The notes under the pieces are model-generated. The model was not told the DNA's origin. It saw only the letters and a list, made by a program, of their open reading frames with translations, and ran no database searches. 60,335 nt of DNA, taken from assembly GCA_015232395.1 (NCBI GenBank), contig JADFZT010000010.1, positions 23,766-84,100 of the forward strand. Direction: 5' to 3'. This document shows, piece by piece, positions 22,090 to 43,264 of the stretch (the first letter of the stretch is position 1; each line of letters opens with the position of its first letter). The stretch comes from Magnetococcales bacterium. Lineage in GTDB: Bacteria > Pseudomonadota > Magnetococcia > Magnetococcales > JADFZT01. The position numbers were made by a program, and so were the translations under genes.

Positions 22090-22293
22090 TTGGTTGGCTT
22101 TTGACCTTGGTCTCTCTGTCACGGATCTTTTCCCACGGATATCTCCGCCTCTGTTCCGGTCGTTTTTTCTCTCTTCTTCTGTTCCTGGGATCACCGCCCT
22201 TGATCTCCATGCTTGCCACTTCCACACCTGACCCTGTTATGATCCATACGGCTGATTTTATTGTTTCCACCTGACCTTTCAGGGATTCATTCC

Positions 22294-24642
22294 ATGGCTG
22301 TGACCCAAAAACTCGCCAAAACCCACGCCAAGTCCGATAAAAGCAGCTCTCCCCCTCGATTTAAGCTGGGGGACATGTTGGTGGAAAAGGGCAAAATCAC
22401 CCAGGAGCAGCTTCTGGAGGCCCTGAAACACCAGAAAGCCCAGGATGTTCGCCTGGGAGAGGCCCTGGTGGCCCTGGCGTTTCTTACCCAAAAACAGCTG
22501 GACGACTTTTTGGATACCCAGCGCAAGCAGGCTTTGGTAGGGAACCTGCTGGTTCGGGCGGGAAAAATTACCGAAGAGCAGCTTGGGGAAATTTTGGCTG
22601 AGCAGAAGCGGACCAAATGCCGCTTTGGCGAAGCTCTGCTGCGTTTGGAGGTGATGGAGGAGAAGGCCTTTTCCCAGTTTTTGGCGAGCCATCTGGGGGT
22701 GCCTTTTCTGGATTTGATGGAGATGGAGCTCCAGGAGGCGGCGGTCAAGCTGTTGCGGGAGGAGGATGCCCGTCGCCTGCGGGCCATTGTGGTGGTGGAC
22801 AACCTCAAAAGCGTCATCGTCGGGATGGTGGATCCCAGTGATCTGATGGCCTATGACGAGCTGGCCCAGATCATTCGCAAACCGATTCGCCTGGGGATGG
22901 TGATTGAGCGACAGTTTCACCAGGCCCTGGATCGGGTATTCAAAAAGACCGACCAGATTCAGGGGCTGGTGGAGGAGTTGGGGGATGAGGTGGATCGCAA
23001 ACGCCTCGACTTCAACCAGTTCGTCCAGTCTGAAATGCTCACCGAGGCCCCGGTGATGCGGGTGTTGCAGACCATGTTTGAAGATGCCGTGCGCCACAGC
23101 TCTTCGGACATTCACATTGAGCCGGGTCTGGAGGTGTTGCGCATTCGCAAGCGGGTGGATGGGGTGCTCCACGAACAGGTGTTGAAACAAAAACATATCG
23201 CCCCCTCCCTGATTTCCAAGCTCAAGCTGATGGCTGGTCTGGAAATTTCTGAACGCCGCCTGCCCCAGGATGGGCGCTTCAGCATGCGGGTGGATGCCTT
23301 GGATGTGGATGTGCGTATCTCGACCCTGCCCATTCAGACCGGTGAATCGGTGGTGATGCGGATTTTCAATCAGCAGGGGGCCAACATTCGCATCAACCAG
23401 GTGGGATTTCCCCCGGCCCTGCAAAACCGCCTGCGCAACTGGATCGCACGCCCCAATGGTCTCGTGCTGGTGAGCGGTCCCACCGGCAGCGGCAAGACCA
23501 CCACTCTTTATGCCGCCTTGAATGAACTCAACGTCTCCTCAAAAAAAATCATCACCGTGGAAGATCCGGTGGAATATCGCCTGGATCGGATCAATCAGGT
23601 GCAGGTCAATTCCAAGATCGGGCTCACTTTTGCTTCGATTTTGCGCAACGTTTTGCGCCAGGATCCCGACGTGGTGCTGGTGGGTGAGATGCGGGATCAG
23701 GAGACAGCCGATCTGGCGATTCGGGCGGCTCTGACCGGTCATTTGGTGCTCTCCACCATTCACACCCGGGATGCCGCTTCCACGGCGGTGCGCTTGATGG
23801 ATATGGAGGTGAAGGGGTATGCCGTGGCTTCGGCGCTGGTGGGGGTGTTGGCCCAACGGCTGGTGCGGCGGATCTGCCCCCACTGTGTAGCCCCCTATCA
23901 ACCCAATGTTCAGGAGCAAGCGTGGCTTTCGACCATGATCCGGGATGAAAATCTCCCTCTGAAAGTGGGTAAGGGGTGCAAGCGTTGTCAAAAAACCGGC
24001 TATCTGGGCCGGGTGGCCGTGGGGGAAATGCTGGAGATGGATGAGCCACTCTCCCAGGCCTTGCAGATGAACGATACCGGGGCCTTTTTGCAGCGGACCG
24101 CCCGGCAAAAGGGGTTTGTCTCTTTGCATCAGGCGGGATTGCTCTACGCTCGGGGGGGGATCACCACTTTGAGTGAAGTGATGCGCCATTTTGGCGATCC
24201 CACCTTCAGCGACACCCCCCTGGCGAGCCAAACCACCGGAGGAAGTGGTCAAACCGTCCGTCCCACCCAAACCCTGCGCACCACCCAGGCTCCCCGGACT
24301 CAGAGCGTGGCTGGGGGGGGTGTTCCGGGCAGAACCCAATCCCCCACGGCCCGCAAAGCGCCATCGGCCCCCCAAACGCCGGTCACACAACAGGCCGCCC
24401 CAGTCGATGATGAGGATAAAACCGTAGTAGCCGGTCAGGCCCAGATCCCAACCCAAGCGCCTATCCAGGCCAAATCACGGATGATTCCAGGCCTGGATGA
24501 TGAGGATAAAACCGTAGTGGCTGGTCAGGCTCAGATCCCAACCCAAGCGCCTATCCAGGCCAAGTCACGGATGATTCCAGACCTGGATGATGAAGATGAC
24601 GATGAAGAGGATGCCCCCACCATGATTGCGCCAAAATCCTGA
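22294..24642 (+). CDS. mshE: MshE-type pilus extension ATPase with doubled MshEN domain and acidic repeat tail
   Basis: A 782-residue GspE-family ATPase that powers pilus extension on the cytoplasmic face of the platform. The catalytic core shows Walker A (GPTGSGKTTTLYA), the Asp box (ITVEDPVEYRL), Walker B (VVLVGEMRDQETADLAIRAA) and the tetracysteine zinc site (CPHC ... CKRC). The N-terminus contains four copies of the 24-residue MshEN half-motif (about residues 21-45, 52-76, 83-108, 113-137), which in VcMshE bind cyclic-di-GMP; the first reads LGDMLVEKGKITQEQLLEAL. An unusual ~140-residue C-terminal tail includes two 30-residue repeats (DEDKTVVAGQ) and an acidic end with DAPTMIAP. The ATG at 22294 is preceded by CAGGGA; the frame starts farther upstream without support. 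Confidence 0.9.
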   Translation: MAVTQKLAKTHAKSDKSSSPPRFKLGDMLVEKGKITQEQLLEALKHQKAQDVRLGEALVALAFLTQKQLDDFLDTQRKQALVGNLLVRAGKITEEQLGEILAEQKRTKCRFGEALLRLEVMEEKAFSQFLASHLGVPFLDLMEMELQEAAVKLLREEDARRLRAIVVVDNLKSVIVGMVDPSDLMAYDELAQIIRKPIRLGMVIERQFHQALDRVFKKTDQIQGLVEELGDEVDRKRLDFNQFVQSEMLTEAPVMRVLQTMFEDAVRHSSSDIHIEPGLEVLRIRKRVDGVLHEQVLKQKHIAPSLISKLKLMAGLEISERRLPQDGRFSMRVDALDVDVRISTLPIQTGESVVMRIFNQQGANIRINQVGFPPALQNRLRNWIARPNGLVLVSGPTGSGKTTTLYAALNELNVSSKKIITVEDPVEYRLDRINQVQVNSKIGLTFASILRNVLRQDPDVVLVGEMRDQETADLAIRAALTGHLVLSTIHTRDAASTAVRLMDMEVKGYAVASALVGVLAQRLVRRICPHCVAPYQPNVQEQAWLSTMIRDENLPLKVGKGCKRCQKTGYLGRVAVGEMLEMDEPLSQALQMNDTGAFLQRTARQKGFVSLHQAGLLYARGGITTLSEVMRHFGDPTFSDTPLASQTTGGSGQTVRPTQTLRTTQAPRTQSVAGGGVPGRTQSPTARKAPSAPQTPVTQQAAPVDDEDKTVVAGQAQIPTQAPIQAKSRMIPGLDDEDKTVVAGQAQIPTQAPIQAKSRMIPDLDDEDDDEEDAPTMIAPKS
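24406..24585 (+). repeat. Two 90-base in-frame repeats in the mshE tail
   Basis: Two adjacent 90-base units (24406-24495 and 24496-24585) differ by only a few bases. They encode a 30-residue segment that begins DDEDKTVVAGQ and includes QIPTQAPIQAKSRMIP. A partial acidic start of a third unit follows. High DNA identity suggests recent duplication. Confidence 0.95.
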
Positions 24643-30025: not shown

Positions 30026-32230
30026 GTGGCCAAGAAAAAAACATTTCCAGACGCTATTCCCGAAGAGTCCATGCTGCTCCAGTACAAGATTGAAAAAGTA
30101 CTGGGTCAGGGGGGATTCGGTATCACCTATCTCGCTACCGATACCCGGCTGAAAATGCCGGTGGCGCTGAAGGAATATTTTCCCGCCGGGGTCGCGGTGC
30201 GGGATCTGGCCAGCGGTCAGCTCAGGCCCAAATCCCCCAACGAGGAGGCTCAGTTCAAAACCGGGCTCGAAGCCTTCCTGGAGGAGGGGCGTACCCTGGC
30301 CCGTTTTCGCCATCCCAACATCGTCCAGGTGCTCAATTTTTTTGAGGAGATGGGTACCGCCTTCATGGTGATGAGCTATGAGGATGGCAAATGCCTGGGG
30401 GATCTGTTCAAGGCCCGCCAGCAGCTCACCGAAGAAAAGCTTCTGGAGATTGTCCTGCCGCTCCTGGACGGTCTTCATGTTCTCCACGAGGAGGGCTTTA
30501 TCCATCGGGATATCAAGCCCGACAACATCTACCTGCGCAAAAAGGACGACTCTCCCGTGCTGCTGGATTTTGGCGCTACCCGCCAAACCATGGGTGAGCA
30601 GACCAAAACCGTCACCGCCATGTTGACGCCGGGCTACGCCCCCTTTGAGCAATACCACTCTTCCAGCAAGCGGCAGGGGCCCTGGACCGATATTTATGCC
30701 TTGGGTGCGGTGCTCTACCGGGCGGTCTCCGGTCGCCTGCCCGATCACTCCACGGATCGGGGCAGCGCCATCCTCCAGAGCGAACCCGACCCCACCCCTT
30801 CGGCCTTGTCGGTGGCTGGCGGCTACTATTCAGACCATTTTTTAAACGCCGTCGATAAGGCGATGCAGGTTCTGGAAAAAGACCGCCCCCAAAACACCAT
30901 GGAGTTGAAGGAGCGCCTTACCGGTCGATTTGACGGGGTGGACGAACCCCTGACCCGACCGATGATGGGGCAACCACCGGGATTTGCAGCAGGCGGGCCT
31001 GACTTCCAGGAGCCTGCCAGCACCCTGATGGATATTGCCGATCATGACGACTATATGCCGGTTTTGGATGAGGCGACCACCTTTCCCACCGGACCTGCCC
31101 TGGAGCTGGAACCAGAGGATGAGGAGGAAGAGGAGACCCCGCCAGCCGGAAGTGATCCTGCTTCGGATGGCCCAGGCAGTGAAGCGCAACCCGAAGCCCC
31201 ACTCTCCCCCGAACCTGCCCCGGCCCCTGATCGGGTCGCTCCGGAAAATCTGGAGGAGGAGGAAGAGGAGTATGAGAAGGAATCTTCCGGTGGATTGATG
31301 ATCCCGGTTCTGGCCATTTTACTCGGAGCGGGGGGATGGTTTGGCTATCAACATTTTATGGGCGAGGAGAGCGCACCCGCAGGTCAGACAGCCCCGGGAC
31401 AGTTTGCCACGCCAGAACAGGCCCGACACATGCCCCCGGGTGCTTCCGGGATGATGCCTGCCAGCCAACGGGGACCAGCCCGCGATCTTCCCATCGAAGA
31501 GTGGATCGAGCCGGTAACGGGAATGGTTTTTATCAAGGTGGGGGGCGGCTGCTTTCAGATGGGCAGCGATGACGGTAAAAAAGATGAGCAGCCGATTCAC
31601 GAGGCGTGTGTTGGTGATCTCTGGGTGGGCAAGCATGAGGTGACCAACGCCCAGTACAACCAGTGCGTCACCGCTGGCGGTTGCGCTCCCACGGAATGGC
31701 AGGCCGGTGGCAACCTGGAGCACTACAACCAACTGGGCAAAGCCCTCTCCGTGGCCGATCATCCAGTGGTGGGGGTCTCCTGGAACAATGCCAACGAAAT
31801 GGCTGCCTGGCTATCGAGTCAGGGAAATGGCCACTATCGGCTCGCCACGGAAGCAGAGTGGGAATACAGCTGCCGCTCTGGTGGTGGGGACGAAAAATTT
31901 TGCGGGGGGTTTTTAGTCGGCAAAGTAGCTTGGCATTCCAATAATTCCGAAGAGGAAACCCACCCGGTAGGTCTCCTGGAGGCCAACGCCCTGGGCCTTC
32001 ACGATATGAGCGGCAACGTTTGGGAATGGGTGTCGGATTGGCACAACAACGACTATTACCAGGTGAGCCCCATCAACAATCCCCAAGGCCCTCCAGAGGG
32101 TACCCATCGGGTGCGCCGGGGTGGGGGCTGGTATGATCCCCCCAGAGATGTCCGCTCAGCCGGGCGTTATCGAAGTGATGCCAGCATTCGCTTCAACGAT
32201 TTGGGTATGCGCCTGGTGAAAAATCCATAG
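30026..32230 (+). CDS. Ser/Thr protein kinase with membrane helix and FGE-sulfatase-like domain
   Basis: A 734-residue protein. The N-terminal kinase (about residues 15-285) has the glycine loop GQGGFGITYLA, the ATP-anchoring Lys in VALKEYFP, catalytic HRDIKPDN, LLDFGATRQ, and GYAPFEQY typical of this bacterial family. An acidic/proline-rich linker (about 310-420) precedes a membrane helix (IPVLAILLGAGGWFGYQHF, about 425-445). The C-terminal domain (about 490-734) is of the formylglycine-generating-enzyme/sulfatase-modifying family: GMVFIKVGGGCFQMGSD, KHEVTNAQYNQC, RLATEAEWEYSCRSGG, GNVWEWVSDW, RRGGGWYD. The external domain may be a sensor rather than an active enzyme. GTG start. It lies 250 bases after the pilin genes on the same strand. 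Confidence 0.9.
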   Translation: MAKKKTFPDAIPEESMLLQYKIEKVLGQGGFGITYLATDTRLKMPVALKEYFPAGVAVRDLASGQLRPKSPNEEAQFKTGLEAFLEEGRTLARFRHPNIVQVLNFFEEMGTAFMVMSYEDGKCLGDLFKARQQLTEEKLLEIVLPLLDGLHVLHEEGFIHRDIKPDNIYLRKKDDSPVLLDFGATRQTMGEQTKTVTAMLTPGYAPFEQYHSSSKRQGPWTDIYALGAVLYRAVSGRLPDHSTDRGSAILQSEPDPTPSALSVAGGYYSDHFLNAVDKAMQVLEKDRPQNTMELKERLTGRFDGVDEPLTRPMMGQPPGFAAGGPDFQEPASTLMDIADHDDYMPVLDEATTFPTGPALELEPEDEEEEETPPAGSDPASDGPGSEAQPEAPLSPEPAPAPDRVAPENLEEEEEEYEKESSGGLMIPVLAILLGAGGWFGYQHFMGEESAPAGQTAPGQFATPEQARHMPPGASGMMPASQRGPARDLPIEEWIEPVTGMVFIKVGGGCFQMGSDDGKKDEQPIHEACVGDLWVGKHEVTNAQYNQCVTAGGCAPTEWQAGGNLEHYNQLGKALSVADHPVVGVSWNNANEMAAWLSSQGNGHYRLATEAEWEYSCRSGGGDEKFCGGFLVGKVAWHSNNSEEETHPVGLLEANALGLHDMSGNVWEWVSDWHNNDYYQVSPINNPQGPPEGTHRVRRGGGWYDPPRDVRSAGRYRSDASIRFNDLGMRLVKNP

Positions 32231-36917: not shown

Positions 36918-39900
36918 ATGGTCTTTAGCGATCTTTCCATCCGCCGCAAACTGACCGCCATTATGACCCTGGTGAGCGGCATCACCCTCATTTTGTCCCT
37001 GGCTTCCTTTTCCTTGTCTGATTGGCTCAATGAACGCAAGGCGTTGGTGGAGCATATTACCCTCCAGGCCCGGATTGTGGGTTCCAACTGCCGGGCAGCC
37101 CTGGCCTTCAACGATGCTACCACCGCCGAGGAGACCCTTTCGGCTTTGGCCGCCTCCGATACCATCCTCAATGCCACCCTGTTTGATGCGGATGGCAAGC
37201 CGGTTACCCAATACATGCGTACCTCTCATTCAGAGAAACATCAAGCTCTGCAGGGGCTGCCGTTGTATGAGGGGAGCGTGTTTGATCACGACTTGCTTTT
37301 GTTGCGGGATCCGATCTTTCTGGATGGGGAAAAAATTGGTTCCATCGTCATTCATGCGAGCTTGGAATCTCTCTATGAGGAGTTGTGGCGTTCTCTCATC
37401 GTGGGACTGGCGGTATTGACCCTGGCCTTGATGATCGCCTATGCCCTGGCTGATCGCTTACAGAAGGTTATTGCCGGACCCATTGCCCAGCTCAAGGAGG
37501 CCACACTCGCCATTGCCCATGGCCAGTTTAATACCACCATTACTTTGAATACCAAGGATGAGCTGGGGCAGTTGGCGGACTCTTTCAACTCCATGGCCGG
37601 GAGCTTGGGCTATATTGACAACATTCTTCTCTCCATGGCCGACATTCTTATCGTCGCCACGCCCCAAGGGGTGATCGAAAAGGTCAACCGCCCGGGGCTT
37701 CTGGGGTTTTCAGAGGCAGAAATTACAGGGCTTTCTCTGGAAGAAATTTTTGTCGGGGAGGTGGTGATTGGTGAGGAGGGCACTCACCCTTTTGGTTCGG
37801 ATCAATTCGATATGTTGGTTTTGGAAGGGGCCATCAGCAATATCGAAGCCGCTATGATTCGCAAGGATGGTAAGCGTATCACGGTTCTTATCTCCGGGTC
37901 GGTGATGCAGGGGGCGGATGGCAGTATGGCCGGTCTGATTTTGGTGGCCAAGGAGATCACCGAATTCAAAAAGGCCCAGCAACAACTGCGGGCCAAGGAT
38001 GCTGAACTCCTGGCCGCCGAGATGACCTCCCGCTCCAAAAGCGAATTTTTGGCCAACATGAGCCACGAAATTCGCACGCCCATGAATGCCGTCATGGGGA
38101 TGACCGATCTGGCTTTGGCCACCGAACTTTCCCCCCAGGCCCGGGACTATCTCGATAAGATTGCCGGGGCCTCCCGCTCCCTGTTGCGCATCATCAACGA
38201 TATTCTCGACTTTTCCAAGATTGAGGCGGGCAAGCTGGAGCTGGAATCAGCTGACTTTTTGTTGCGGGATGTGTTCGATCATCTGGTGGATCTGTTTCGG
38301 GCCATGGCGGCTGAAAAGGGCATAGACCTGATTTTCGACATCTCAGCAGAGTGCCGCTACGCCTTGAACGGCGACTCCCTGCGCCTGGAGCAGGTGTTGA
38401 TGAACCTCATCAACAATGCCATCAAGTTTACCCCGGAGGGAGAGGTAGAGATTCGAACCCGAACCATCGAAGCCTCTCCGGAGCGGGTATTGCTGGAATT
38501 TGCCGTTCGGGATACCGGCATCGGCATGACCGAAGCCCAGATTGATCGTCTTTTTCAACCCTTTGTCCAGGCGGATGGCACCACCACCCGTAAATTTGGC
38601 GGAACTGGGCTAGGTCTGAGTATCTGCAAGCGTCTTGTGGAGATGATGGGGGGGGGGATTTGGGTGGAAAGCACCCAGGATGAGGGGAGTATCTTCCGTT
38701 TTTCCATGGCTTTTGCCCGTAAGGTGGAACTGGAAGGCCAAGATCTCACAGTCCCCCTCCTCTTGCAGAATCTTCAGGTGTTGGTCGTGGATGACAATCC
38801 ATCCATTCGCAAGGCCCTGGCAGAAATGGTGCTCTGCTTTGGCTTTGGAGTGGAAGAGGCGGATTCGGGGCTGGCGGCAGTGGAAGCAGTTCGCACGGGA
38901 TTGGAACAAAACAGCCCACCCAGTCTCCTTTTGGTGGACTCTTTGATGGTGGGTATCAGTGGGGTGGAGACGGCTCAGCAGGTGATGGCCACCCTGGCAG
39001 AAGCGAAGGGGAAGCACGATAAAACCCGGATTATCCTGTTGCGGGATTTTGGCCCCACTCAAGAGTCGGAAGCCCAGTTGCACCAGATGGGAGTAGACTC
39101 GGTACTGACCAAGCCCATCAACTGCTCCATTTTGTTTGATACCGTCATGGAACTCTTCGGCCAGGAGGTGACCAAAACTTATCGCCTGGGCTCGGATCAC
39201 ATCGATATCGACCTGGTCATGCAGACGATCGGTGGGGCTCGGGTACTGCTGGTGGAAGATAACCACATCAACCAACAGGTGGCCCAGGAAATTTTGGAGG
39301 GGGTGGGGTTGGTGGTGGAAACCGCTGAAAATGGCCGGGAAGCCGTGCGCATGGTGGAAAAACAGGCCTATGAAGTGGTGTTGATGGATATTCAGATGCC
39401 TGAGATGGATGGCTATGAAGCCACCCGTCAGATCCGCAACAACCCCCTCTTTACCGAGTTACCCATCATCGCCATGACCGCCCACGCCATGGCTGGGGAT
39501 CGGGAAAAGAGTCTCAATGCCGGCATGAACGGCCACATCACCAAACCGATTTCCAAGAAAGATCTTTACACCACCTTGACCCAATGGATCTCTCCACGAC
39601 AGGGGGGTGGGCAGGTGATCCAACGCCCCCTGGCAATGGATCATCCCCAGGAGTCGGTTTCCATGCCGGAGAGCCTGCCTGGCATCGATATCTCCGCAGT
39701 TTTGGAGCGTTTGGGGGGCAACCACAAGCTGTTTCGTTCGCTTCTGGCTGAATTTGAACGGGATTATGGTCATGCAGCCTTGGACATCCGTACCATCCTC
39801 AGAGGACAACGGATGGATGATATACAAGCGGCTGCCAATATGGCCCATACGGTCAAGGGGTTGGCGGGCAATCTTTCCGCCCACGATCTTTTCGAGTCGG

Positions 39901-40304
39901 CCCGGGCTTTGGAATCAGCCATTAAAAATCGTGAAACCGCCGCCTGGCCGGAGCTGCTGGATGTTTTTGAACAGACCATTGCCCAAGTGCTCGAAGGGGT
40001 GGCGTTGATCAAACAGCTGGAAAGTGCGGGGGAGGATGGCGCCACTGAAACCATTTCCTCAGAGCCACTGGATTTGGCCGTGGTTGCCACAATGGCAAAA
40101 AAACTGGCTAAGTGCCTGCAAAATTTTGACCCCAGCGCCCAGGCTCATCTGGATACCATGAAGCCGATGATTGCAAGCCGGAAAAACCAGGAGGAAGGGG
40201 TGCTGTTGCAAGAGTTGGAAGAAAAAATGGATCGTTTTGATTTTAATGAAGCCCTTGAAAGCCTTCAAAAGCTCGTTGAAGCCTTGGGGGTGACCATCGA
40301 ATAG
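36918..40304 (+). CDS. CHASE8-like hybrid histidine kinase
   Basis: An 1,128-residue kinase. Order: membrane helix (about 16-36), periplasmic CHASE8-like sensor (about 40-150, with GSNCRAALAFNDATTAEETLSAL), second membrane helix (about 155-180), HAMP (180-235), PAS (about 240-360), HisKA with phosphorylated His 383 ([10 protein letters not shown]), HATPase (about 430-590), two receivers (VLVVDDNPS/LLVDSLMVG and [22 protein letters not shown]), Hpt (AHTVKGLAGN) and a helical C-terminal unit like those in the giant kinase. The first receiver keeps the Asp but is divergent. It lies 15 bases after the YfiR-like gene, as in YfiR-linked sensor operons. The G-run of ten at 38648-38657 lies in the HATPase codons. 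Confidence 0.9.
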   Translation: MVFSDLSIRRKLTAIMTLVSGITLILSLASFSLSDWLNERKALVEHITLQARIVGSNCRAALAFNDATTAEETLSALAASDTILNATLFDADGKPVTQYMRTSHSEKHQALQGLPLYEGSVFDHDLLLLRDPIFLDGEKIGSIVIHASLESLYEELWRSLIVGLAVLTLALMIAYALADRLQKVIAGPIAQLKEATLAIAHGQFNTTITLNTKDELGQLADSFNSMAGSLGYIDNILLSMADILIVATPQGVIEKVNRPGLLGFSEAEITGLSLEEIFVGEVVIGEEGTHPFGSDQFDMLVLEGAISNIEAAMIRKDGKRITVLISGSVMQGADGSMAGLILVAKEITEFKKAQQQLRAKDAELLAAEMTSRSKSEFLANMSHEIRTPMNAVMGMTDLALATELSPQARDYLDKIAGASRSLLRIINDILDFSKIEAGKLELESADFLLRDVFDHLVDLFRAMAAEKGIDLIFDISAECRYALNGDSLRLEQVLMNLINNAIKFTPEGEVEIRTRTIEASPERVLLEFAVRDTGIGMTEAQIDRLFQPFVQADGTTTRKFGGTGLGLSICKRLVEMMGGGIWVESTQDEGSIFRFSMAFARKVELEGQDLTVPLLLQNLQVLVVDDNPSIRKALAEMVLCFGFGVEEADSGLAAVEAVRTGLEQNSPPSLLLVDSLMVGISGVETAQQVMATLAEAKGKHDKTRIILLRDFGPTQESEAQLHQMGVDSVLTKPINCSILFDTVMELFGQEVTKTYRLGSDHIDIDLVMQTIGGARVLLVEDNHINQQVAQEILEGVGLVVETAENGREAVRMVEKQAYEVVLMDIQMPEMDGYEATRQIRNNPLFTELPIIAMTAHAMAGDREKSLNAGMNGHITKPISKKDLYTTLTQWISPRQGGGQVIQRPLAMDHPQESVSMPESLPGIDISAVLERLGGNHKLFRSLLAEFERDYGHAALDIRTILRGQRMDDIQAAANMAHTVKGLAGNLSAHDLFESARALESAIKNRETAAWPELLDVFEQTIAQVLEGVALIKQLESAGEDGATETISSEPLDLAVVATMAKKLAKCLQNFDPSAQAHLDTMKPMIASRKNQEEGVLLQELEEKMDRFDFNEALESLQKLVEALGVTIE

Positions 40305-40352
40305 GCCAAGCCCATTTATTTCCCACCAAGTTTGTCTCCGTTTTTGTCTGCT

Positions 40353-40446
40353 TGCCTCTGAAACTCAGTTCGTTTTTTTCTATCTGCCTCTGAAATTCAA
40401 TTCGTTTTATTCTACTGCCTTCTGAAGCTCAGTTCGTTATTTTCTG
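40353..40446 (+). repeat. Three imperfect tandem repeats, about 31 bases each
   Basis: Three copies start with TGCCTCTGAA or TGCCTTCTGAA at 40353, 40385 and 40416, followed by CTCAGTTCGT or TTCAATTCGT and a T-rich end. They lie between the hybrid kinase and the next kinase gene, about 130 bases upstream of the latter's start. They could be protein-binding sites for an activator or simple decayed duplications. Confidence 0.8.
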
Positions 40447-40576
40447 GCTGATTGACCTCCAATCGTTCGACGTATCATTTGGGTCATTTCGATGGGCGAC
40501 CCTTTTGCGTTATGCTGACTGTTGATACGTGCTTCACTGGACGTATGGCCTCTACCCCTTCCCGAAAAGCATCTTA

Positions 40577-42337
40577 ATGGATAGATCAAAAATTTTGATC
40601 ATCGATGATATTCCCCTGAATATCAAAGCGCTTATGTCGGCTCTGGGGGGGGATTATCACTTTATCGTTGCCACCGATGGCGCCACCGCCCTCAAACTGG
40701 CCACCATGATGGTGCCGGATCTGATTCTTCTGGATATCATCATGCCTGGAATGGATGGCTATGAGGTGTGTCAGAAGCTGAAAAAAACCGACAAAACGCA
40801 GCATATTCCCATCATTTTTATCACTTCCAAAAATACCCCGGTGGATGAAACCCGGGGGTTGGCCCTGGGGGCGGCAGATTTTATCGGCAAGCCCTTTCAT
40901 GCCGGGATTGTCCAGCAGCGAGTGGCCCATCAACTGGAATTGAAGCAGCATCGGGATAATCTGGAAGAGATGGTCGTGAAGAGGACGGCCCAGCTGGCCA
41001 CTGCCAAAAGTGCTGCAGAAGAGGCCCGGGAGGTGGCTGTTGAAAATGAGCGGAAAACCCGCCGGCTTTTGGAGGCCCAGGAGGTCGTGCGGGCACTCCT
41101 GGATGCCTCCATTCGGACCAAGGATCTGGATAAATTTATGGAGCGGGCGCTAAGCCTGCTTTTTACCGTCTCCTGGCTCTCCATTCAAAAGAGAGGGGCT
41201 ATTTTTTTGGCGGATGAGCCCGATCATCCGTATCGAATGGTTTCCGCAACCGGCGAGCAGGGAAAGATTTTGAAACGTTGTAAAAAATTGCCGGAAGAGG
41301 GTTCCAATAACGCTGAAGAAAAGGTGGATTCCAAAACCGAAGAGGGTGCTGATGGTGAAGAGGAGTCGAACACCCGTTATCCCCAAATGATGGACGAGGG
41401 GGATTATGTGGTGCCTATTTTGGCGGATGACGAAGCTTTGGGGGCGATCTGCCTCTATTTGGTTGAGGGGTATGAGCGGTCAGAGGAGGAGGATCAATTT
41501 CTCCAAACCTACTCCCGAACCATCTCCGGTATCATTCGACGGGTGCAGGCAGAGCAGTCCCTCAGGGAAAAGGAGTTGCAGCTGATTCATGCGGATCGTC
41601 TGACTGCCTTGGGGGAAATGTCCACAGGGATTGCCCACGAAATCAACCAGCCTTTGACGATTATCCGTATGCGGGCGGAAAGTTTGAACAATGCCGCTTC
41701 CCGAGGTCGAATGGAGCCGGAAAAGGTGGCCCATACCGCTCAAAAAATGATGGAGCAGGTGGATCGTACTACCACCATCATCAACCATATGCGCTCTTTT
41801 TCCCGTAGTGAACGGCGGCTTTCTCCCCGTGCGACCGATCTGGCGGTGCCGACGGGGGAGGCCTTTTTTTTCTTCCGGGAGCAGTTTCGCAAACACGATA
41901 TTGAGCTGGTAGAGGATATTCCCGCCGATTTACCCCTGGTCAATATTCATGATAACCATTTTGAACAGATTGTCATCAATCTACTCTCCAATGCCCGCTA
42001 TGCTGTTTTGAAGCGCCGGGAGATGGAACCAAACCATACCATGCGGGTTCGGGTGGCGCTCTATCCCGAATTCTCAAGCCAAACAGTGATCCTGGATGTG
42101 GAAGATAACGGTTTGGGTATGACCCAGGAGGAACAAAATCGCTGTCTGGAGCCCTTTTTCAGCACCAAGGAAGTCGGCCAGGGAACCGGACTTGGCTTAT
42201 ATATCGTCATTGGTATCATCAATGAGTATAATGGCAAAATTCAGGTGGAGAGTGAATTCGGGGCTTGGACGCGATTTCAGGTCGCCTTGCCGATTCTGTC
42301 GGAAAATAATCAGGTCGATAGCCAAAAGAAACAGTAA
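40577..42337 (+). CDS. Receiver-histidine kinase with GAF-like domain
   Basis: A 586-residue cytoplasmic protein: receiver (about 1-120, ILIIDDIPLN and LILLDIIMPGMDG), coiled coil (about 125-175), GAF-like domain (about 185-330) with an acidic insertion, HisKA with His 354 (STGIAHEINQPLTIIR), and HATPase with VINLLSNARYA, NGLGMTQEE and GTGLGLYIV. It has no membrane segment, so it takes its input from another kinase through the receiver or from a cytoplasmic ligand. The ATG at 40577 starts at the receiver; an upstream GTG at 40529 adds 16 unconserved residues. It starts a run of three related signalling genes. Confidence 0.9.
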   Translation: MDRSKILIIDDIPLNIKALMSALGGDYHFIVATDGATALKLATMMVPDLILLDIIMPGMDGYEVCQKLKKTDKTQHIPIIFITSKNTPVDETRGLALGAADFIGKPFHAGIVQQRVAHQLELKQHRDNLEEMVVKRTAQLATAKSAAEEAREVAVENERKTRRLLEAQEVVRALLDASIRTKDLDKFMERALSLLFTVSWLSIQKRGAIFLADEPDHPYRMVSATGEQGKILKRCKKLPEEGSNNAEEKVDSKTEEGADGEEESNTRYPQMMDEGDYVVPILADDEALGAICLYLVEGYERSEEEDQFLQTYSRTISGIIRRVQAEQSLREKELQLIHADRLTALGEMSTGIAHEINQPLTIIRMRAESLNNAASRGRMEPEKVAHTAQKMMEQVDRTTTIINHMRSFSRSERRLSPRATDLAVPTGEAFFFFREQFRKHDIELVEDIPADLPLVNIHDNHFEQIVINLLSNARYAVLKRREMEPNHTMRVRVALYPEFSSQTVILDVEDNGLGMTQEEQNRCLEPFFSTKEVGQGTGLGLYIVIGIINEYNGKIQVESEFGAWTRFQVALPILSENNQVDSQKKQ

Positions 42338-42427
42338 GCCATGGTCGGTGCAAGGTGTCGAACCTGTAATCCCGTCCAATCGTTGGCCCGTCATGATCGT
42401 TTAGGTGGCCATAGGAGCTTTTAAACC

Positions 42428-43264
42428 ATGACCGTAACCTGGACCAGGAAAGAGCAGCGTCTGCTGATTACCATCAACGGCAGCCTCGATTTTAAGCAGA
42501 AAGCTGATTTGCTTGATGTTTACTATCAACAAAATGGGGATTTGGCCGGACTGGAAGTATATGTGGATATCAGTCTTGCCCAGGTAACGAGTAGTGGCCT
42601 GGGGGTTCTGGGTTTACTACAAAAAAAATTTAGTGCAGCTGGATTGCTGGTTACCCTGTTGATCGGTCGTCTGCCTACCCTGCAAAACGACGATATCGCT
42701 TCCCGGCCCATCGGTACGGTCCTTTTGGATCAAAAATCCTTTCTCAACTTTTTCCATGGTATGGGGTTTGTTGTCAAACTATCGATGCCCAACACCCTCC
42801 TGGCCGAGTTGGAGGGGAGTGATTTTGACCAAAACGAGGCAGGAAGGGGGGGGCTGTCAGAAGGTAAACCAGAAGGAGGTCGAGCCATCGCTGTTCTGGT
42901 GGTAGATGATGAGCCAGGCATTCTGGAAATTATTGAAGAAGATCTCAAAGAGCGCTCCCTGGTGGTATTTACCGCCGAATCGGGCATGGCCGCTCTCAAA
43001 ATATTGCACGAGGAAACGGTGGATGTGCTGGTGACCGATATGCGAATGCCGGGTATGGATGGCCTGGAACTGATCCAGCGTACCAATGCCATGGGAAAAG
43101 GGGTCAAGTCCATCATCGTCACGGGTCATGGAGATATGCACAATGCCATTGAGGCACTCCATCTGGGTGTTTCAGGCTATCTGCTCAAGCCACCGGTGTT
43201 GGCTGAACTGAATGATCGAATCTTGTCAGCGGCAAAGAGTCCTCCCGCTGCCAATGGTATTTAA
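42428..43264 (+). CDS. STAS-like/receiver protein
   Basis: A 278-residue cytoplasmic protein. The first ~115 residues resemble a STAS domain (anti-sigma-factor-antagonist fold: VTWTRKEQRLLITINGSLDFKQK, YVDISLAQVTSSGLGVLGLLQKKF). Residues 155-270 are a receiver (VLVVDDEPGILEIIEEDL, VLVTDMRMPGMDGLELI, VTGHGDMHNAI). STAS proteins usually bind kinase-like or transporter partners; this one would link them to phosphorylation. It lies between two receiver-histidine-kinases. AGGAG sits 10 bases before the ATG. Confidence 0.85.
   Translation: MTVTWTRKEQRLLITINGSLDFKQKADLLDVYYQQNGDLAGLEVYVDISLAQVTSSGLGVLGLLQKKFSAAGLLVTLLIGRLPTLQNDDIASRPIGTVLLDQKSFLNFFHGMGFVVKLSMPNTLLAELEGSDFDQNEAGRGGLSEGKPEGGRAIAVLVVDDEPGILEIIEEDLKERSLVVFTAESGMAALKILHEETVDVLVTDMRMPGMDGLELIQRTNAMGKGVKSIIVTGHGDMHNAIEALHLGVSGYLLKPPVLAELNDRILSAAKSPPAANGI

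Follow-up and report, generated by a model that had tools for sequence, protein, structure and literature searches.

Pilus motors are already known to be tuned by c-di-GMP, and the 24-residue c-di-GMP-binding motif was defined in one of them, the Vibrio cholerae ATPase MshE (PMC5013675). Phosphothreonine control has been described in Bdellovibrio for the FHA-GGDEF protein DgcB, in which the FHA domain binds a phosphopeptide from the protein's own tail, and the sites in DgcB, GarA and OdhI have a hydrophobic residue at +3 (PMC6733907). In Sulfolobus, the FHA protein ArnA, together with ArnB and ArnC, controls the archaellum, a relative of the type IV pilus (PMC12852372). In the literature searched, we found only archaeal precedents for a link between kinases or FHA proteins and PilB/MshE. 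Here we describe a pilus ATPase of the Magnetococcales whose C-terminal tail is probably a tandem phospho-acceptor array. The window (the whole stretch of DNA that was analysed, 60,335 nucleotides; G000:C10:23766-84100) belongs to a genome of 4.94 Mb in 170 contigs, and its features are collected in Table 1.

Table 1. Features of the window, in window coordinates, and the array-bearing fusions of related genomes
Feature	Position or locus	Strand	Basis or remark
Open frame of 2,724 residues	1748..9922	-	
MSHA-type pilus extension ATPase (MshE/PilB/GspE family)	22261..24642	+	Pfam T2SSE 421 bits + MshEN
c-di-GMP-binding motif pair, predicted	22363..22521	+	24+5+24 residues, aa 35-87; NF053729
Disordered C-terminal tail, aa 651-793 (143 residues)	24211..24639	+	AlphaFold2 pLDDT <50 throughout
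Tandem repeat copy 1, DDEDKTVVAGQAQIPTQAPIQAKSRMIPGL	24406..24495	+	candidate phospho-acceptor T721 at 24421-24423
Tandem repeat copy 2, DDEDKTVVAGQAQIPTQAPIQAKSRMIPDL	24496..24585	+	candidate phospho-acceptor T751 at 24511-24513
Third site, extreme C-terminus, DDEDDDEEDAPTMIAPKS	24586..24639	+	candidate phospho-acceptor T787 at 24619-24621
Transmembrane Hanks-type Ser/Thr kinase, FGE/SUMF-like C-terminal domain	30026..32230	+	Pkinase 117 bits, FGE-sulfatase 165 bits
Cluster of CHASE8 hybrid histidine kinase (two receivers + Hpt), receiver-histidine kinase and receiver protein	36918..43264	+	
Clear-array fusions	L329, L330, L331, L332, L337 (G028, G036, G009, G022, G010)		N-terminal FHA, long (D/E)xDAT[VIM][VM] array

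Because the ATPase combines T2SSE and MshEN domains with a complete 24+5+24 motif and is encoded in a locus containing MshL, we assigned it to the MSHA-type (MshE) family; by its motif, it is a predicted c-di-GMP-binding protein. Counted from TTG, it has 793 residues, and the true start may be an ATG 11 codons downstream; the Walker A motif, GPTGSGKTT, is at residue 406. The two motif halves (residues 35-58 and 64-87, with a 5-residue spacer) gave 98.9 bits in two stretches with NCBIfam NF053729 (cut-off 38), and both of their deviations, Lys for the first Arg and Ala for the Gly of the second motif, are permitted by the relaxed motif. A more diverged second motif pair is found at about residues 93-144. 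The MshL secretin of the locus passes its equivalog cut-off (275.9 vs 250.2); the locus also encodes a T2SSF protein and, downstream, several proteins of the prepilin type. The T2SSE ATPase, the tandem 24-residue motifs and the MSHA-type locus with MshL are thus shared with V. cholerae; in contrast to V. cholerae MshE (PMC5013675), the ATPase here adds a tail of 143 residues, predicted to be disordered, that contains three acidic-Thr sites. The same genome encodes a second MshE-type ATPase (L085, G000:C22:25527-27380), which is 56% identical and has a plain acidic tail with no Thr motifs.

The tail, which ends the protein as DEEDAPTMIAPKS, is in frame with the ATPase, and DEDKTVVAG occurs in it twice, both as the original prediction had it. 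The three sites are DDEDKTVVAG at T721 and at T751 and EEDAPTMIAP at T787, and all conform to Acidic-x-T-[VIM]-[VILM]-A within a disordered segment. The first motif is present twice because of an exact-length, in-frame tandem duplication of 90 nt (30-residue units, 94% identical, 2.1 copies by TRF). The third site lies outside the duplication. The acidic residue before Thr, the hydrophobic residues after it and the disordered tail are shared with DgcB, GarA and OdhI (PMC6733907), as is the context of FHA domain, kinase and second messenger. Unlike in those proteins, however, all three sites have Ala and not a hydrophobic residue at +3, the site and the FHA domain are on different proteins (on the same polypeptide in the fusions of relatives described below), and the sites form arrays on a pilus motor.

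To judge how widespread such a tail is, we compared it with 29 further MshE-type ATPases from the order, with the second MshE of the genome (C22) and with 10 homologues from outside the order, and found no counterpart. Most of the other MshE-type ATPases of the order have short, acidic C-terminal tails without the motif. Because the motif is missing from every other MshE tail inspected, the tail is, on the sequences compared, specific to the lineage of the source genome and without conservation of its own; as to its conservation together with the kinase across relatives, no inspected MshE relative has the tail. Acidic C-terminal tails are also common in this ATPase family, and the tail repeat is a recent duplication. 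These points would suit a neutral or purely electrostatic extension of this lineage, in which the Thr motifs are incidental and were doubled by duplication. Against such an extension, the repeat copies show five differences, four of them synonymous (P=0.045 if transitions are random), and the non-duplicated EEDAPTMIAP matches the consensus of a motif class found in other proteins of the order, with A/P at -1, A at +3 and P at +4.

This class was evident in the source genome itself. Across all 4.94 Mb, the strict DNA pattern for [DE]3-x-T-V-[VIM] was matched six times: twice in the tail, once in a Ser/Thr-kinase linker, once in a cyclase-FHA linker and twice outside credible genes (in one case the frame has no start before the motif; in the other it is 107 aa long and competes with a longer frame). 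The kinase, on contig C41, carries SDLDDGDDDATILAGGVDEDDEATVMAAGGG in its membrane-proximal linker, and the cyclase-FHA protein, on contig C7, carries WGEEDDLTVMGGG in the linker before its FHA domain; a second motif-bearing kinase, on contig C87, has FDEAATLIATADEAATVVMPPD. That both credible genes other than the ATPase gene should be kinase or FHA genes has a chance of about 1e-5, assuming about 4,500 genes of which 15 are kinase/FHA genes. Because there are only six strict matches genome-wide and the credible ones are the tail, a kinase and a cyclase-FHA protein, the tail motif is more than chance.

We also searched the strict pattern in 60 relatives and read the open reading frames around about 110 matches from the same order. 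In the order-wide comparison set of 47 other genomes, tandem arrays with the consensus [DE]3-A-T-V-[MV]-A-P take up the linkers of both Ser/Thr kinases and FHA proteins, and the +3 residue is mostly Ala in this class too. The claim that the acidic Thr sites resemble those phosphorylated by kinases and read by FHA domains is thereby strengthened at the level of the motif. Arrays like (PDDEATVMAPAPRR)n precede kinase domains in relatives, as do arrays such as DDEATVMAPRKPAPDDEATVMAPAPRRPAP..., with six copies in L246, five in L252 and four in L271. Large kinases that open with tandem DDEATVMAP-type arrays before the kinase domain were seen at L246, L252, L271, L266, L127 and L132, one of which carries C-terminal Sel1 repeats. 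In many genomes, the cyclase-FHA orthologues have WGEEEELTVMGG (EEEELTVMGG motif) ahead of the FHA domain; in the nucleotide-cyclase-FHA protein of the source genome (L079 2039-3073, G000:C7) and its orthologues, it is strictly placed between the domains.

The association depends on Thr. Among the open reading frames with the pattern, kinase or FHA proteins make up about 33 of 115 for Thr and none of 34 for Ser (Fisher P=5e-5), and 11 of 93 against 0 of 34 when the cyclase-FHA family is left out (P=0.03); the sequences are related, so both P values overstate independence, and the proteins were partly classified by hand. Where the coding sequence is clearly disordered, almost all Thr matches fall in kinases or FHA proteins; the exceptions are the MshE of the window, a probable adhesin and an open reading frame next to a kinase gene (L235). 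Many bare-pattern matches elsewhere are ordered beta-strands unrelated to kinases. Looser patterns ([DE][DE]xT...) gave at most about twice the matches of a reversed control, mostly in ordered beta-strands or non-genes, so we restricted the analysis to sites in disordered segments that match the strict pattern or were scored with the profile. To judge from these comparisons, the motif class is associated with kinases and FHA proteins and is Thr-specific.

A position profile was built from 78 sites in kinase and FHA proteins of 16 relatives, with none from the source genome (consensus [DE][DE][DE]-A-T-V-[MV]-A-P); the rule by which its training sites were selected leans towards acidic-T-hydrophobic sites from the outset. 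The background was the window together with 400 kb sampled from the genome in 20 stretches of 20 kb each, in which 369 genes were predicted with 7,143 Thr. Among these Thr, T721, T751 and T787 rank 1-3, with scores of 13.9-14.2 (next 7.9), and T787 is the highest-scoring Thr of the sample. The three rank 1, 3 and 4 with a kinase-only profile and 1, 2 and 3 with an FHA-ATPase-only profile; with a control profile from other genes chosen by the same selection rule, they rank 6, 7 and 279. In the same genome, the profile gives 22.9 and 14.9 for the C41 kinase, 20.3 and 11.2 for the C87 kinase and 11.1 for the cyclase-FHA protein. Because the three tail sites outrank every other Thr sampled, and the non-duplicated one most of all, a neutral or electrostatic extension appears unlikely.

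The search of the genome for FHA proteins that the original prediction called for yielded seven, including one FHA-GGDEF diguanylate cyclase, along with seven Ser/Thr kinases and two PP2C phosphatases. The FHA proteins are on contigs C6 (FHA-GGDEF), C7 and C9 (cyclase-FHA), C11, C29, C40 and C59 (double FHA), and the kinases include those on C41, C87, C29 and C23 and that of the window. Two of the FHA proteins combine the domain with a cyclase or cyclase-like region, and one phosphatase gene is directly upstream of the cyclase-FHA gene (C7). The FHA-GGDEF protein (L076 4746-5696, G000:C6) has an intact GGEEF and the domain pair of Bdellovibrio DgcB, with no obvious motif-class Thr of its own. 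An eighth kinase match beside its gene (C6:67119) looks only weakly like a kinase and was rejected as an ABC1-family protein.

The kinase gene 5.4 kb downstream of the ATPase gene is where the original prediction placed it; the link drawn from it to the tail fared less well. That this kinase is the dedicated writer of the tail is suggested by its position on the same strand as the last co-directional gene after the pilin genes, by intact HRDIKPDN and DFG motifs and by a kinase domain 59% identical to that of the motif-bearing C87 kinase. Its own linker, however, has no motif-class site (best 2.6, compared with 13.9-14.2 in the tail and 20-23 in the C41 and C87 kinases), and no MshE and kinase genes stand side by side among the matches listed for relatives, where short contigs limit the comparison. 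Further, its only near-full-length relative among the matches listed (G011, 42% identical) comes from a genome that has no close MshE, and proximity, weak evidence alone, is its only tie to the tail. This kinase is thus a possible writer, not a favoured one, and a dedicated role for it is doubtful.

In relatives, the same class of array occurs on a motor in another arrangement. Single polypeptides with an FHA domain, an array and a GspE/PilB-type ATPase, first classed as FHA proteins, were recognised with Pfam in L280 (G028) and L244 (G036), and a search with one fusion found clear arrays in G028, G036, G009, G022 and G010 (five families) and weak or no arrays in G037 and G041. The linker of the G010 fusion alone has >10 sites (GEATMLA, DDATMVR, DDATVIQ, ...). 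No such fusion is present in the source genome, and no description of this architecture was found in the literature searched. The fusions have the same motif array on a type II/IV secretion-family ATPase; they carry their own FHA domain with the array on the N-terminal side, whereas the MshE here lacks an FHA domain and bears its array at the C-terminus. These fusions show that the connection between the motif class and a pilus or secretion motor arose in a second form within the same order.

We therefore favour, with a probability of about 0.62, the reading in which the tail is a tandem phospho-acceptor array on a c-di-GMP-regulated pilus ATPase, phosphorylated by kinases, read by FHA domains and reversed by PP2C phosphatases. 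Reading the tail sites as phosphothreonine sites is well supported by sequence; from this we infer phosphorylation, FHA binding and an effect on pilus extension. At least one Hanks-type Ser/Thr kinase would phosphorylate T721, T751 and T787, and the C41 and C87 kinases (G000) are the best candidate writers because their own linkers carry the same motif. FHA-domain proteins would bind the phosphothreonines and either recruit a partner to the hexameric motor or sequester the motor, and PP2C phosphatases would reverse the modification, so that a second input would be added to a c-di-GMP-gated motor. Of the originally proposed dual control by c-di-GMP and Thr phosphorylation, the full 24+5+24 motif and the kinase/FHA-class sites support the two inputs as predictions, and the neighbouring-kinase link is not supported. 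Kinase and FHA phosphothreonine control of a type-IV-pilus-like machine is shared with ArnA/ArnB/ArnC (PMC12852372), but that system is archaeal and acts on the separate regulator ArnB and on component expression, not on a motor tail. That the motif instead is a docking or pseudosubstrate site, or an unphosphorylated FHA ligand tethering signalling proteins to the motor, is improbable, for although the DgcB FHA domain also binds the unphosphorylated DgcB tail (PMC6733907), Thr and not Ser is kept in the kinase and FHA proteins, which fits pThr-specific FHA reading.

Within the phospho-acceptor reading, we speculate that the FHA-GGDEF protein (G000:C6) is an attractive reader, since it would bring the synthesis of c-di-GMP to a motor that depends on c-di-GMP. 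A broader version is a long shot: an order-wide modular phosphothreonine tag (an acidic-A-T-V-M-A-P array) would have been copied onto kinases, FHA proteins and secretion or pilus ATPases, and here would recruit the FHA-diguanylate cyclase, with one phosphorylation bringing a c-di-GMP source to a c-di-GMP-gated motor.

If the favoured reading is true, direct control by Thr phosphorylation and FHA binding would join two signalling systems on one pilus motor, and the fusions show that the motif is connected with secretion-type motors in more than one genome. The question of the motif is testable with short peptides and purified domains, and, for an order whose bacteria are uncultured or hard to grow, the motif class already names kinases, readers and targets to work with.
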